NCBI RefSeq assembly: GCF_006152145.1
Contig: NZ_VDFV01000031.1
Coordinates: forward strand, 1-43,824
Direction: 5' to 3'
DNA: 43,824 bases
Source: Rubellimicrobium roseum
GTDB taxonomy: Bacteria; Pseudomonadota; Alphaproteobacteria; Rhodobacterales; Rhodobacteraceae
This document shows, piece after piece, positions 34,810 through 43,824 of this stretch; within the stretch, counting starts at the first letter, position 1; the number at the start of each line of letters is the position of its first letter. Below the pieces are notes generated by a model. The model was not told the DNA's origin. It did no database searches and saw nothing but the letters and a program-made list of their open reading frames with translations. A program made the position numbers and the translations under genes.

Positions 34810-35823
34810 TCAGGCGATGCGCTTGTCGGTCTGCGACTGCGGCGTTCCCGCCGTCGCCTGTTCGAGGGCGCGCAGGATGGCCTTGCGCGCCATGGGCACC
34901 TTGAAGTCATTGCCGCCCTGGCCGCGCGCGCCCTCCAGCAGCGCATCGGCCGCCGCCCCGAAGGCCTCGCGGCCGGGCTCCTGGCCTCTCAGCAGGTCCT
35001 CCGCCTCGGGCCGTCGCCACGGCTTGTGGGCGACGCCGCCCAGCGCGATCCGCACCTCTGCGATGCGCTCGCCCTCAAGCCGCATCGCCACCGCGACCGA
35101 GACGAGCGCGAAGGCATAGGACAGGCGCTCGCGGAGCTTCAAATACGTGAAGTTGGTCGGGAAGCTCTCGGGCGGCAGGTCGATGGCAGTGACCAGTTCA
35201 CCGGGCTCCAGCGTGGTGTCGCGCCAGGGCTCGTCGCCGGGAAGGCGGTGGTAATCCGCGAAGGCGATGACACGGTCGCCCCCGGGGCCGGTCACGCGCA
35301 CCTCGGCCTTGAGCGCCGCCAGAGCGACGGCCATGTCCGAGGGATGTGTGGCGATGCACTGATGGCTTGTCCCAAGGATCGCGTGGATGCGGCTGACGCC
35401 GCCGATCGCCGCGCAGCCCTGGCCGGGCTCGCGCTTGTTGCAGGGGGTGGCCACGTCGTAGAAGTAGTAGCAGCGCGTGCGCTGGTTGATGTTGCCGCCG
35501 TTCGTGGCCGCGTTTCGGAGCTGTGCCGTCGCCCCCGCCAGAAGCGCCGAGGACAGGAGCGGATAGCGCGCCTGCACCCGTTGGTCGTAGGCCGTCTCGG
35601 TGTTGGTCGCGAGCGCGCCGAGGCGCAGGCCGCCCTGCGCGGTATCCTCGATGCCAGTTAGAGGTAGGCGGGCGATGTCCACCACGCGGGTCGGGCGCGC
35701 GACATTCTCCTTGAGAAGGTCCACGAGGTTCGTGCCGCCAGCGAGGTAGGCCACCTCCTCGCCCGCGCCCTCGCGCAGCGCCTCGGCCAAATCCGTGGGG
35801 CGGGCGTAGTCGAAGCGGATCAT
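34810..35823 (-). CDS. paoB: Aldehyde oxidoreductase, FAD/[4Fe-4S] subunit (PaoB-type)
   Basis: A 337-residue FAD-binding subunit (CO dehydrogenase/xanthine dehydrogenase medium family). The FAD contact AYLAGGTNLVDLLK is near residues 25-38 and ATNGGNINQRTRCYY near 106-120. It has an insert with C118, C128 and C137 (TRCYYFYDVATPCNKREPGQGC), the cysteine set that in E. coli PaoB holds an extra [4Fe-4S] cluster. Electrons pass from molybdenum through the [2Fe-2S] subunit to FAD. It overlaps the upstream [2Fe-2S] gene by 4 bp (ATGA). Confidence 0.9.
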   Translation of the reverse strand: MIRFDYARPTDLAEALREGAGEEVAYLAGGTNLVDLLKENVARPTRVVDIARLPLTGIEDTAQGGLRLGALATNTETAYDQRVQARYPLLSSALLAGATAQLRNAATNGGNINQRTRCYYFYDVATPCNKREPGQGCAAIGGVSRIHAILGTSHQCIATHPSDMAVALAALKAEVRVTGPGGDRVIAFADYHRLPGDEPWRDTTLEPGELVTAIDLPPESFPTNFTYLKLRERLSYAFALVSVAVAMRLEGERIAEVRIALGGVAHKPWRRPEAEDLLRGQEPGREAFGAAADALLEGARGQGGNDFKVPMARKAILRALEQATAGTPQSQTDKRIA

Positions 35824-36356
35824 TCCCAGCCCTCCTGGCCCATGACCTCAAGTATCGCGTCGGCTATGTTGGTATAGGCCCCGCAGCGGCAGAGGTTCCC
35901 GCTCATCTGCTCGCGGATTTCCTCGCGGGTATGGGCGTGGCCCTCGCGGATCAGCCCCTCGGCCGAGCAGATCTGCCCCGGCGTGCAGTAGCCGCACTGG
36001 AAGGCGTCATGCTCGATGAATGCCGCTTGGAGAGGGTGGAGGTTCCCCGGCTGACCCAGCCCTTCGATGGTGGTGATCTCGCAGCCGTCGAGCGTCACCG
36101 CGAGCTTGAGGCAGGCGTTCATGCGCGTGCCGTCGATCAGCACGGTGCAGGACCCGCACTGCCCGTGGTCGCAGCCCTTCTTCGTCCCCGTGAGGTGCAG
36201 CCCTTCGCGCAGCAGGTCGAGGAGCGTGACCCAGGGCTCCAAGTCCAGCGCCTGCGCCTCGCCGTTGATGGTGAGCCGGACGGGGACGGTGCCTATGGGC
36301 CGCGAGGCAAGCGCAAGGCCGGGGTCGTTCGAAAGGCTCAGGGCCGCCTGGCTCAT
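35820..36356 (-). CDS. paoA: Aldehyde oxidoreductase, [2Fe-2S] subunit (PaoA-type)
   Basis: A 178-residue ferredoxin-like subunit with two [2Fe-2S] clusters. The plant-type N-terminal cluster is held by CDHGQCGSC...C (GTKKGCDHGQCGSCTVLIDG), the C-terminal helical cluster by CGYCTPGQ and CRCG (GNLCRCGAYTNI). Unlike E. coli PaoA, I see no twin-arginine signal at the N-terminus (MSQAALSLSNDPG), so the complex may be cytoplasmic here. It overlaps the FAD-subunit gene downstream and the catalase-like gene upstream by 4 bp each. Confidence 0.9.
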   Translation of the reverse strand: MSQAALSLSNDPGLALASRPIGTVPVRLTINGEAQALDLEPWVTLLDLLREGLHLTGTKKGCDHGQCGSCTVLIDGTRMNACLKLAVTLDGCEITTIEGLGQPGNLHPLQAAFIEHDAFQCGYCTPGQICSAEGLIREGHAHTREEIREQMSGNLCRCGAYTNIADAILEVMGQEGWE

Positions 36357-40429: not shown

Positions 40430-41340
40430 CCGCCGCCTTGCGGGCCGGACGGGGCTGCGGCCCATCGCGCCGGGGTGGCCAGCCTTCGCGCTGCCGACCA
40501 CTTCTTCGGTCCGGTCGGGGGTGGGGGGACACCACCGTGTCGGGAAGGGTATGTCGATGCCGGCCCGGTCGAGTGTCTCCTTGATCGCTCGAATGACTCG
40601 GACCCGGGTGTGGACGATGCTGGTGCGCCGGCTGTCCTACCACACGCGGACCTTGAGCGTCACCTGCGATCCCGCGAACTCATAGGGCAGGACCTCGGGG
40701 CGGGGTCGGCGACGAGGCCTTCGACGCCCCGCCGCGCCGATGGGATCGCCGCCCGCGCCGCAGCGATACCTTTGCCATGGCCGATGCCGACGTCCACTCC
40801 GGTCCGTCGCAGCGTGCAAGCGGTGTTTACCGTCACCGCATTGGTGAAGGTGGCGGCGTTGAAGATGATCGCCCGCCGCCCATCATACGTGCGGATCATG
40901 GTGGCGCGGTTCTCGATCCACTCGACCTTCCCCCGTGACCATTCGCTACGATTTTGTCGCCCACTCGGAAGGGCCGCCGGAGCAGGAGCGGTGATCCGGC
41001 GAGCCAGTTTTGGAGGATGTCCTTGAAAGCGAAGCCGATGGCGACCGAGCCGATGCCAGGGCCCGCGATCAGGTCGCCGGGGTTGAAGGTGGGAATGACG
41101 ATAATGAGCCCGATGAGCGAGCCCAAGATATGACTACTTACTTGACGAGCAGGTCCAGCGCCGCGCCGGGAATGGCGCGTTCGTGCCGCTCGTCCCAGCG
41201 GTGGATCGCTTTCCGGAGTCCCTATGCGACTGCTGCGCAGAGAAGAAGCACGAGGACTGCCACCAAGAGGTTGGGCAGGAGGCGTTGAAACCCCTCCACC
41301 GGCGCGGGAAAGGCGAGTTGCTCCTGCTCGGGTGACCTAG
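40430..41340 (-). pseudogene. Broken MscS-family mechanosensitive channel gene
   Basis: The pieces are in different minus-strand frames. GLIIVIPTFNPGDLIAGPGIGSVAIGFAFKDILQNWLAG...LLLRRPFRVGDKIVANGHGG (about 41126-40935) is the MscS pore helix and beta domain. MIRTYDGRRAIIFNAATFTNAVTVNT continues it, then PEVLPYEFAGSQVTLKVRVW ends at an in-frame TAG. Beyond that, DSRRTSIVHTRVRVIRAIKETLDRAGIDIPFP is the usual C-terminus. An N-terminal helix is visible near 41230-41300. At least two frameshifts and one stop make it nonfunctional as sequenced. MscS channels release solutes under osmotic downshock. Confidence 0.82.
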
Positions 41341-41404
41341 GGGGAACTTCCTGTTGCTCCCGGCGGTTGCGGCCCCGATGAATAATCCCGGCCGGAGCCC
41401 TGTC

Positions 41405-41746
41405 ATGCGCCTCTCCTACCTCCTTGTCCTCCTGCCCGCGACGGTGAGCGCGGTCTTGGGCGGAGCGGCCTATATAAGGCCTGACAGTGGCGTGGACGGC
41501 ACCGGGGGGGCGCTCCTGGCGCTGGCCGGAGCGGTGGCGGTGGCGGTAGGGGCGCTCATCGCCCTGACGGCTGTGCTACGCGGGGCGCTGCGCGGCGTCC
41601 TCGACGCGCTCCTGTTCCTCGGCGCGGCCTTGACCGCGGTCGCGGCCTGGTTTCTCATGCAGGACGCCTTCGCCGCCGCCATGGCGCTGGCCGCACTAGG
41701 GGTTCTGATCGCCGTTCTCCTTCGCCCGCGCAGGAGGCTCGCCTGA
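41405..41746 (+). CDS. Small four-helix membrane protein coupled to the PQQ dehydrogenase
   Basis: A 113-residue hydrophobic protein with about four helices (LSYLLVLLPATVSAVLGGAAYI, GALLALAGAVAVAVGALIALTAVL, VLDALLFLGAALTAVAAWFLM, AFAAAMALAALGVLIAVLL) and an Arg-rich tail. Its stop overlaps the start of the PQQ dehydrogenase (TGATG). Membrane glucose dehydrogenase (Gcd) carries an N-terminal helical anchor of similar kind; here that anchor appears to be a separate protein. This is inferred from position and topology, not sequence similarity. ATG 41405 was chosen as the hydrophobic segment starts there; ATG 41354 is possible. Confidence 0.7.
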   Translation: MRLSYLLVLLPATVSAVLGGAAYIRPDSGVDGTGGALLALAGAVAVAVGALIALTAVLRGALRGVLDALLFLGAALTAVAAWFLMQDAFAAAMALAALGVLIAVLLRPRRRLA

Positions 41747-43638
41747 TGCGCCAACTCGCCGTCCGGCCCCTGCTCGCCCTTGTCCTTCTCGGCTCGCCCG
41801 CCCTGGCCGAGCAACCGGTCTGGGACAGCTTTAACGGCAATCTTGCCGCGACCAAGTTCGCCGATGTCACGAGCTTCACGCCCGAGACGGTGGGCCGGCT
41901 TGAACGCGCCTGGGAGGTCCAGACCGGCGACGTGTCCGACGGCTCGGGCGAGCTGCCCGAGACGGTCTGGTCCGCCACCCCCATCTACGCGAACGGCACG
42001 CTTTATCTTGGCACACCCTTCTACCGCATCCTCGCACTCGACCCGGCGACGGGGGTCCAGAAGTGGAGCTACGACAGCCAGTCCACGCTCGAGGCGCTGA
42101 CCCAGCCCGCGCTCAAGAACCGTGGCGTCGCCTACTGGGAAAGTGGGGCGGCAGAAGCCTGCGGGAAGCGGGTCTACATCGGCACGATGGACGCCACGCT
42201 TCATGCCGTGGACGCCGACACCGGGGAACCATGCGCCGATTTCGGTCAGGGTGGCGTCGTTGATGTGAACCAGTGGAACGACGTCAACGACCGCTTTCCG
42301 TTCTCGCTCCTCCAGCCGCCGACGGTGGTGGGCGACACGCTGCTTCTGGGCTGGGCGGGCAAGGATTGGGAATACACCGTGGCGCCGCCGGGCAACCTCC
42401 TCGCGCTCGATGCTCGCACGGGCGAACTGCTGTGGGAGACATCCTTTATCCCTGAGGAGATGGTCCAGCAGACCGGCACCGCCAACATCTGGACGTCCAT
42501 GGCCGCCGACCCGGAGCTCGGGCTAGTCTACGCGCCCGTGTCCTCGCCATCCCCCAACTACTGGGGAGGCAACCGGCTCGATGACATCCCGCTCGCGACC
42601 TCCATCACGGCGGTGGACGTGGCGACGGGCGAGGTTCGCTGGAGCCGCCAGATCGTCCACCACGACATCTGGGACTACGACACGCCCTCGGCTCCCGTCC
42701 TCGTAGACATCGACCGCGGCGGAGAAACCATTCCCGCTCTCGTGCAGACAACCAAGCAGGGCTTCCTCTTCGTCCTCGACCGCCGCACCGGCGAGCCCGT
42801 CTTCCCGATCGAGGAGCGCCCCGTTCCGCCGTCGGACGCCGAGGGCGAGGTCGCCGCGCCCACCCAGCCCTTCGTGGATCTGCCGCCCCCGACCGTAGAC
42901 GTGTCCGACATGCCCGAGGTCTGGGGGCTGGCCGACCTCCTGAGCGGTGGGCAGTGCTCGGAGGACCGCGAGACCTACCGCTACGAGGGGCCTTTCACGC
43001 CCCCGTCGGAGCAGGGGACCTTCATGTATCCGGGCACCGCGGGCGCCAACAACTGGGGTGGCCCGGCGGTCGATCCGGTGAACGACGTGCTCTACATCAA
43101 CTCGATGCGCATTGTGCAGGTGATCCGCCTGATCCCACGCGCCGAATACGAGGAGGTCGACGGCGGCAGCGGCAACGAGGAGGGCTACTACCCGCAGGAG
43201 GGATCGCCCTACGGTATCCACCTGACCGAATGGCGCACGTCCCTCGGCCTGCCCTGCTGGGAGCCGCCCTACGGCACCTTCTCGGCCTACGACCTGCGCA
43301 CGGGCGAGCGGCTCTACGAGGTGCCCTTCGGCCTCTCGCAGCAATGGGGCTTCTACGGCCTGCGCGACTGGGGCTCGCCCACGCTGGGGGGGCCGGTGGT
43401 GACGGCGGGGGGCGTCATCTTCATCGGTGCCTCGATGGACGCGCGGGTACGTGCACTCGACGCGGCCACGGGCAAGGAGATCTGGTCCGATCTCGTGGAG
43501 GCCCCCTCGGTCGCCATCCCGGCCGTCTTCACGCACGAAGGCGTCGATTACGTGGTCTTCGTCGCGGGCGGCAACTCGATCCTAAAGCCCGAGGTCTCGG
43601 ACCAGGTCGTGGCCTACCGGCTTCCGGCTGGCGAATAG
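41746..43638 (+). CDS. PQQ-dependent glucose dehydrogenase-type quinoprotein (secreted domain only)
   Basis: A 630-residue protein with a signal peptide (MRQLAVRPLLALVLLGSPALAEQ) and an eight-bladed quinoprotein propeller: WDSFNGNLAATKFADVTSFTPETVGRLERAWEVQTGD, ATPIYANGTLYLGTPFYRILALDPATG, IVHHDIWDYDTPSAPVLVDI (H305-H306-D307), AGANNWGGPAVDP, and LGGPVVTAGGVIFIGASMDARVRALDAATGKEIW. It best resembles the periplasmic part of membrane glucose dehydrogenase (Gcd) and lacks its N-terminal membrane domain. Related enzymes oxidise aldoses or polyols and reduce ubiquinone. It is translationally coupled to the small membrane protein upstream. A weak hairpin (CGGTCG..CGACCG) after the stop may be a terminator. 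No PQQ-synthesis gene is in the window. Confidence 0.88.
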   Translation: MRQLAVRPLLALVLLGSPALAEQPVWDSFNGNLAATKFADVTSFTPETVGRLERAWEVQTGDVSDGSGELPETVWSATPIYANGTLYLGTPFYRILALDPATGVQKWSYDSQSTLEALTQPALKNRGVAYWESGAAEACGKRVYIGTMDATLHAVDADTGEPCADFGQGGVVDVNQWNDVNDRFPFSLLQPPTVVGDTLLLGWAGKDWEYTVAPPGNLLALDARTGELLWETSFIPEEMVQQTGTANIWTSMAADPELGLVYAPVSSPSPNYWGGNRLDDIPLATSITAVDVATGEVRWSRQIVHHDIWDYDTPSAPVLVDIDRGGETIPALVQTTKQGFLFVLDRRTGEPVFPIEERPVPPSDAEGEVAAPTQPFVDLPPPTVDVSDMPEVWGLADLLSGGQCSEDRETYRYEGPFTPPSEQGTFMYPGTAGANNWGGPAVDPVNDVLYINSMRIVQVIRLIPRAEYEEVDGGSGNEEGYYPQEGSPYGIHLTEWRTSLGLPCWEPPYGTFSAYDLRTGERLYEVPFGLSQQWGFYGLRDWGSPTLGGPVVTAGGVIFIGASMDARVRALDAATGKEIWSDLVEAPSVAIPAVFTHEGVDYVVFVAGGNSILKPEVSDQVVAYRLPAGE

Positions 43639-43754
43639 CGCTGGACTCCGTCGGTCGAGGGGCTCGCCGACCGTCACGGAACATCTTGTCACAGTCCGAC
43701 AGAAGGCCAGCGAACTTCTGAGAGACGCCTTGCTTAAGCTTTTCCGGATCGCAC

Positions 43755-43824
43755 GGCATTGTTGCGGAACTCGACTGGAGGCCGAGGTTGCCCCTTTCCC
43801 CTTCAGGTCAGGCGACGCGCGTGA
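43755..43824 (-). mobile_element. Terminal 70 bp of an insertion sequence (right edge, body outside window)
   Basis: The inverted partner of bases 1-70, with 62 of 70 matches. Read rightward it begins GGCATTGTTGCGG at 43755, the expected outer tip of an IS5-like element, and runs to the window edge. Between the dehydrogenase stop (43638) and this point there is no recognised gene; an apparent minus-strand ORF starting at 43759 begins inside the IS tip and is probably spurious. Confidence 0.6.

Follow-up and report, generated by a model that had tools for sequence, protein, structure and literature searches.

A conserved gene pair in Rubellimicrobium roseum that probably encodes a two-piece quinoprotein dehydrogenase with a membrane anchor unlike that of Gcd and SldB in sequence

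The Rubellimicrobium roseum gene pair and its described counterparts

SldB/SldA, a PQQ-dependent glycerol/sorbitol/polyol dehydrogenase (GLDH), acts on glycerol, sorbitol or gluconate in Gluconobacter and further acetic acid bacteria. References cited in PMC9171043 describe the Gluconobacter enzyme as a two-subunit PQQ enzyme published in 2002, and these, together with PMC8927921, report that its small hydrophobic partner SldB is needed for SldA activity. As cited in PMC9171043, Miyazaki 2002 reported SldB to be required for the development of SldA activity in E. coli. A sequence-only reading of the present locus had known of no described example of such a two-part form; as a claim of novelty this was wrong, as SldB/SldA of acetic acid bacteria has been known since 2002. 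Gcd, as represented by the E. coli protein and by TIGR03074, is a single chain, whereas the locus examined here consists of two open reading frames.

The stretch of R. roseum DNA that was analysed (the window, 43,824 nucleotides) carries on its plus strand a gene for a small four-helix membrane protein (positions 41405 to 41746; ATG start, 113 residues, stop included) and, directly 3' of it, a gene for a putatively secreted PQQ-dependent dehydrogenase propeller (41746 to 43638, plus strand; ATG start, 630 residues, stop included). The stop codon of the small gene and the start codon of the large gene have one base in common, read from the sequence as TGATG (41744 to 41748, plus strand). The small open reading frame displayed four hydrophobic peaks by hydropathy analysis, and its AlphaFold2 model contained helices at residues 2-24, 34-55, 60-83 and 87-105 with a mean pLDDT of 93.9. 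The four-helix protein of 113 residues, overlapping the propeller start, that was proposed from the sequence alone was thereby confirmed. The N-terminus of the large subunit, MRQLAVRPLLALVLLGSPALA-EQ, resembles by eye a cleavable signal peptide, likely spanning residues 1-21 (41746 to 41808, plus strand), as that reading had also proposed.

The large open reading frame matched PF01011 over the full length of the profile (positions 1-595; E 4.2e-189, 630.5 bits against a cut-off of 26.7). It also matched TIGR03074 at model positions 154-783 (E 4.9e-162), with a score of 540.6 bits that lies below the cut-off of 832.65; since this match begins only at model position 154, the anchor part of the model is absent from the large open reading frame. 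In alignment with E. coli Gcd, Asp310-Tyr-Asp312 (42673 to 42681, plus strand) corresponded to Asp466 and Asp468, Lys337 (42754 to 42756, plus strand) to Lys493, and Trp249 to Trp404; we take Asp466, Lys493, Trp404, His262 and His775 of E. coli Gcd to be active-site residues. Aspartate at both D-x-D columns and lysine at the Lys493 column were found in every row compared, comprising 32 rows of the clade defined below that carry the small domain, 20 gcd rows, 15 sldA rows and 19 rows with a propeller alone, and the Trp404 column was kept in all rows counted. With these columns kept, a working PQQ site is likely. The column of His262, which contacts glucose, is occupied by Ala122 in the window propeller, and that of His775 by Asn610, an asparagine present in 32/32 clade rows counted. 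Given these two substitutions, glucose as the substrate, as named in the sequence-only reading, is unsupported.

The metal of E. coli Gcd is Mg/Ca. PMC11996626 treats the D-x-D pair of glucose dehydrogenases as a lanthanide motif; because it is present in every Gcd, SldA, propeller-only and clade row counted, E. coli Gcd included, the motif does not separate metal types within this family. In two relatives (L065, upstream of 3001, and L009), a long acidic low-complexity stretch lies between the signal peptide of the large subunit and the propeller.

PqqC and PqqE are both encoded in the R. roseum genome with scores over the cut-off, and the host can therefore probably make the PQQ cofactor. 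A propeller search of this genome recovered partial matches of 31-37% identity at two further places, and found no second enzyme of the same kind. The contig ends 186 bases 3' of the propeller gene (base 43824), and an open minus-strand frame lies within 43640 to 43824 at this edge; that it marks a mobile-element border is a guess. On the minus strand at 40899 to 41406 are broken open reading frame fragments that have, by eye, the look of an MscS-type channel; the one piece searched (40899 to 41126) gave no Pfam match. Farther upstream, the minus-strand frame at 35823 to 36356 has a Fer2_2 match and encodes a [2Fe-2S] subunit from an enzyme of the molybdenum hydroxylase type, and the large minus-strand frames adjoining it may encode the other subunits.

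Conservation, fusion and neighbourhood of the pair

A profile of the small-protein family, termed A1, was built from 56 small proteins, the window's own among them. The A1 two-part quinoprotein clade was defined by an A1 domain next to, or fused with, a propeller at least 50% identical to that of the window, and the window pair itself falls within it. A genome scan yielded at least 80 relatives, of which 63 reach 50% or more in propeller identity with the window; among the matches listed, these 63 had a separate upstream four-helix frame in 57 cases, a fused one in 5 and none in 1 (L060). With the A1 profile we next searched the DNA upstream of the propeller at 216 loci on genomes and plasmids; 9 with identical propeller DNA were dropped, leaving 207. 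Fourteen loci had been removed before this count: L244, which is only the 3' part of a gene beginning in L243, and thirteen duplicates. Also outside it were the other propellers of the R. roseum genome (L002-L006), L008 (identical to L017), L009, L010, L097-L101, L138-L140 (without a propeller) and L184 (the same gene as L243).

The pairing expected from the sequence-only reading proved to be conserved: A1 was directly upstream of, or fused to, the propeller in 74 of the 75 distinct loci with at least 50% propeller identity (69 separate, 5 fused), with a weakest E of 1.7e-17 among the 74. The Gcd/SldB anchor was present at none of the 75 loci, and neither anchor at 1. Among the 132 loci with less than 45% identity, A1 was found at none, the Gcd/SldB anchor at 76 and neither at 51; the remaining 5, with under 600 nt of upstream DNA, were not judged, so that the A1 count is 0 of 127 judged loci. 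No propeller identity in the 207-locus set lay between 42.1% and 50.0%. Beyond the 75 loci, L009 and L010 likewise paired the small protein with a propeller 61-63% identical to the window's. Within the clade, a propeller lacking an adjoining small protein was seen only at L060, in a genome that carries a complete pair (L131) on another contig; the L060 enzyme may work without the small protein or borrow one from L131. The distant propellers, below 45% identity, also lack it. The association that the earlier reading proposed held throughout the clade with this one exception, and did not extend to the distant propellers.

Of the 57 split pairs tested, 56 had a start codon for the large gene within -3 to +40 of the small-gene stop. 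A 4-nt overlap was present in 30 of the 57 and TGATG in 2, one of them the window; 1-nt and 4-nt overlaps together accounted for 32/57. Searching 198 genomes of the family for the small protein yielded matches in 4, the window included, each adjoining or fused to a clade propeller. From the class, 387 genomes were drawn and 5 of them were matched by the A1 profile; 2 of these were genuine (the window included) and both lay beside a clade propeller. The other three (G276, G377 and G322) were rejected, as each is a weak match within a longer frame and the 4-6 kb of DNA examined contained no propeller; by eye, these frames looked PlsY-, EamA- and phosphatidylserine-synthase-like. No genuine case of the small protein beside unrelated genes was therefore found in the 198 family and 387 class genomes. 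The pairing of the small protein and the propeller is far beyond chance.

Relatives were also found on plasmids, with 31 listed at 56% identity or more; each of the 5 examined carried the small frame, annotated merely as "hypothetical protein" in 5/5 records. The propellers on plasmids of Pantoea sp. PSNIH1, Pantoea eucrina, Pantoea dispersa and Acinetobacter venetianus all matched that of the window at 57.3% identity and 704 bits, and this equality suggests recent transfer between genera. Four more pairs were found in the family of genome G317 (7 genera shown), which was judged not to be Acetobacteraceae.

In four Limimaricola and one Pseudolabrys (L015-L018 and L055), the small domain and the propeller form a single chain. 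As a positive control, comparison of the A1 profile with the N-termini of these fusions by hhalign gave 99.7%. The fused rows occupied two separate places within the A1 clade of the propeller tree, and fusion is most simply explained as secondary and as having occurred at least twice. A structure model of a fusion kept the four helices and the propeller; because its linker (residues 113-136) had pLDDT values under 50, no interface is claimed. In a structure search with this model, the best 50 matches were led by PQQ dehydrogenases, with other propellers such as BamB ranking after them, and none of these 50 was a match for the anchor.

The downstream neighbours of the pair were compared among seven relatives of the window sublineage, five assigned by the tree (L011, L012, L013, L014 and L057) and two by identity (L092 and L093). 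Directly 3' of the pair, L014 carries a COX2-cytochrome c gene and then COX1, and the Sulfitobacter plasmid L092 carries genes for CtaG, for a cytochrome of the c type and ctaD. The propeller gene of L013 shares its last 4 nt with CtaG, beyond which lie a minus-strand DUF2231 gene and then COX2 and COX1 homologues. Genes for a caa3-type oxidase were not found in the downstream DNA searched for L011, L012, L057 and the Paracoccus locus L093 (76% identity). In the remainder of the 87 loci searched, mostly over about 3 kb downstream, a COX1 match was seen at L035 alone, where it is weaker and on the opposite strand. These oxidase genes raise the possibility that, within this sublineage, electrons from the dehydrogenase go to a caa3-type cytochrome c oxidase, instead of or besides the ubiquinone pool. 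However, such genes follow the pair in only 3 of the 7 relatives (L013, L014 and L092), and gene neighbourhood is not electron flow; we regard this route as less likely than not.

Anchor families and propeller phylogeny

For comparison with SldB/SldA, a family of 102 sampled genera (200 genomes) was reached with a citrate synthase probe. Gcd-type genes are multi-copy in many of its genomes. Across 70 loci, the published reverse sldA primer for AD938_10275 matched the L224 propeller gene exactly and three others with one mismatch, the forward primer matched nowhere even when 3 mismatches were allowed, and every match of the GOX0854 primers had 2 or more. We took this family to be the Acetobacteraceae and the genes concerned to be sldA-type. 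AdhA had also been tried as a marker of acetic acid bacteria and was abandoned, having given one match only, which led to a four-genome family without a closer match. In the 102-genus family, 25 of 40 loci had an upstream frame of 116-208 residues from the earliest start (123-138 residues in 19) with the Gcd-anchor motif GGSxYY. Two tree rows, L226 and L227, were named sldA without SldB because hydropathy gave no three-peak frame; by profile they are not anchor-less.

In both SldB/SldA and the window, the gene for a small hydrophobic membrane protein lies directly 5' of a PQQ propeller gene, and the small subunits are alike in size (113 residues in the window; 123-138 in 19/25 SldB-type loci). 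However, SldB is plainly homologous to the Gcd anchor (99.9% by hhalign, E 3e-32), whereas the window small protein is not. The A1 profile gave 0.2% against the Gcd anchor and 0.1% against SldB, both below reversed controls. By hmmsearch it matched 0/25 SldB and 0/17 Gcd anchors, and the Gcd/SldB anchor profiles matched 0/56 A1 members at E < 1e-3. The Gcd anchor motifs GGSWYY and WEVGFDFW...PR are absent from the window small protein. 'GT..A..WW' patterns had hinted at homology with the Gcd anchor; this candidate was dropped because the profile scores were not above reversed controls. With composition correction off (-sc 0), all three comparisons, reversed ones too, reached 93-95%, indicating that membrane segments easily match falsely. 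Searches for named families were equally negative: the window small protein had no Pfam or NCBIfam match below E 0.1, and across the 56 aligned A1 members every such family matched at most 1 member at E 0.01. In the parts of the open-licence literature searched, no description of a second anchor family for quinoproteins was found.

The likeness to Gcd lies in the homologous propeller, in the retained equivalents of Asp466, Lys493 and Trp404, and in the presence of membrane helices ahead of the propeller. The sequence-only description of the locus as a split Gcd was right as to the two-part form and the coupled genes, but no similarity to the Gcd anchor, such as SldB has, could be detected in the small protein. 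Homologous propellers without an anchor also occur in PQQ dehydrogenases of sphingomonads and others (L073, L076 and L144), with about 40-41% identity; neither anchor family was found upstream in the 51 loci of such kinds below 45%, including L171, an alcohol dehydrogenase.

A propeller tree of 89 rows was computed in 'quick' mode without bootstrap, with some long branches flagged. The A1-type propellers (33 rows) formed one clade with an SH-aLRT of 100. The SldA propellers, 31-35% identical to that of the window, fell, along with three fused Gcds, within a 20-row clade (SH-aLRT 100), and Gcd and SldA together formed one clade (SH-aLRT 100). A single clade of A1 and SldA was rejected (lnL 127.7 lower, p-AU 3.25e-05), and a single clade of all anchored propellers was not (p-AU 0.493). 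By the unlike anchor profiles and the rejection of a joint A1/SldA clade, the known SldBA and A1 two-part forms are separate arrangements, and the A1 pair is apparently an independent, distinct version of the known two-part design.

The small protein might instead be a diverged SldB/Gcd anchor, making the pair an SldBA-like enzyme too distant for recognition from sequence. The two systems share gene order, similar size, several membrane helices and homologous large subunits, and a joint clade of all anchored propellers was not rejected. As both are small helical membrane domains and that joint clade was not rejected, the missing similarity between A1 and the Gcd anchor is no proof of separate origin. 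Nevertheless, A1 showed nothing above reversed controls, although the SldB and Gcd anchors are readily matched to each other; neither anchor profile recovered any A1 member; and SldA was placed inside Gcd, apart from the A1 clade. We consider common descent of the two anchors unlikely, and prefer the reading in which the A1 anchor belongs to a family unrelated to that of Gcd and SldB.

The small protein as a probable anchor, and its implications

Positive residues at the N-terminus, in the middle loop and at the C-terminus of the small protein place both ends inside by the positive-inside rule, as applied by eye. With this topology and the A1 alignment, the first predicted periplasmic loop comprises residues 26-34, PDSGVDGTG (41480 to 41506, plus strand), and residues 25-33, with 3.04 bits of per-segment information, lie within the most conserved segment. 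The two predicted periplasmic loops had the top conservation (3.0 bits), and the cytoplasmic helix halves, loop and tail were less conserved (1.6-2.3 bits), with the loop and tail lowest (1.6-1.7). In the A1 alignment, conservation of H, C, Y, W, D, E, K and R was below 80% at every position. Carriage of electrons by the small protein is unsupported in the absence of a strongly conserved redox-capable residue, and this absence, together with conservation on the periplasmic loops, fits a docking anchor and not an electron carrier. The anchor role proposed in the sequence-only reading is thus likely, given the conserved partnership, the natural fusions and the conservation peak on the predicted periplasmic face; the small protein is most likely an anchor for the enzyme.

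A chaperone-like role for the small partner of such enzymes is an existing idea. Under it, the A1 protein would be mainly a maturation or export partner and not a lasting anchor. The dependence of SldA activity development in E. coli on SldB (Miyazaki 2002, as cited in PMC9171043) is compatible with a helper no less than with an anchor; the natural single-chain fusions, however, fit a lasting subunit better, and a purely assisting role appears improbable. Least probable is a small protein that relays electrons through bound quinone, since, although it is a membrane protein within a quinone-linked kind of enzyme, it has no redox-type residue conserved at 80% or more and no match to a cofactor-binding family, and the C-terminal periplasmic domain of E. 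coli Gcd is itself reported to reduce ubiquinone (Elias 2001, as cited in PMC10239384); the earlier proposal that the small protein hands electrons to ubiquinone is not upheld on the same grounds.

Our best explanation is that the two genes probably encode one two-piece membrane-bound quinoprotein dehydrogenase whose anchor family is unrelated to that of Gcd and SldB, an enzyme design that was then assembled at least twice. Computation established the pair and its conservation, its fusions, the distinctness of the anchor families in sequence and the separation of the clades. For docking, anchoring and electron hand-over, we infer the following scheme. The large subunit would be exported, bind PQQ and oxidise a sugar- or polyol-like substrate in the periplasm. 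The small protein would reside in the inner membrane with both ends cytoplasmic, and its docking surface for the propeller would consist of the two conserved loops on the periplasmic side together with the helix ends. Docking would let PQQH2 pass electrons to the respiratory chain, with the small protein itself no carrier. The pair would then be neither a broken Gcd nor an SldBA, but a propeller joined to an anchor from an unrelated, unnamed family, and later fusion, in Limimaricola and in Pseudolabrys, would have made the two parts a single chain.

On balance, we favour by a modest degree a broader account in which the pair represents a second independent two-subunit quinoprotein family that recruited an unrelated anchor for an exported PQQ propeller, spread in Rhodobacterales, Hyphomicrobiales, Halomonadaceae, Pseudomonas, Pantoea and plasmids, underwent at least two secondary fusions and, within one sublineage, became part of an operon for a caa3-type oxidase, forming a dedicated dehydrogenase-to-oxidase unit. 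If the small protein is a required subunit, expressing the propeller gene alone would give half an enzyme. The fused, separate and anchor-less relatives form a natural comparison set, and the occurrence of two sequence-unrelated anchors on the same kind of propeller makes it testable whether an anchor provides attachment only or a specific docking site for electrons.
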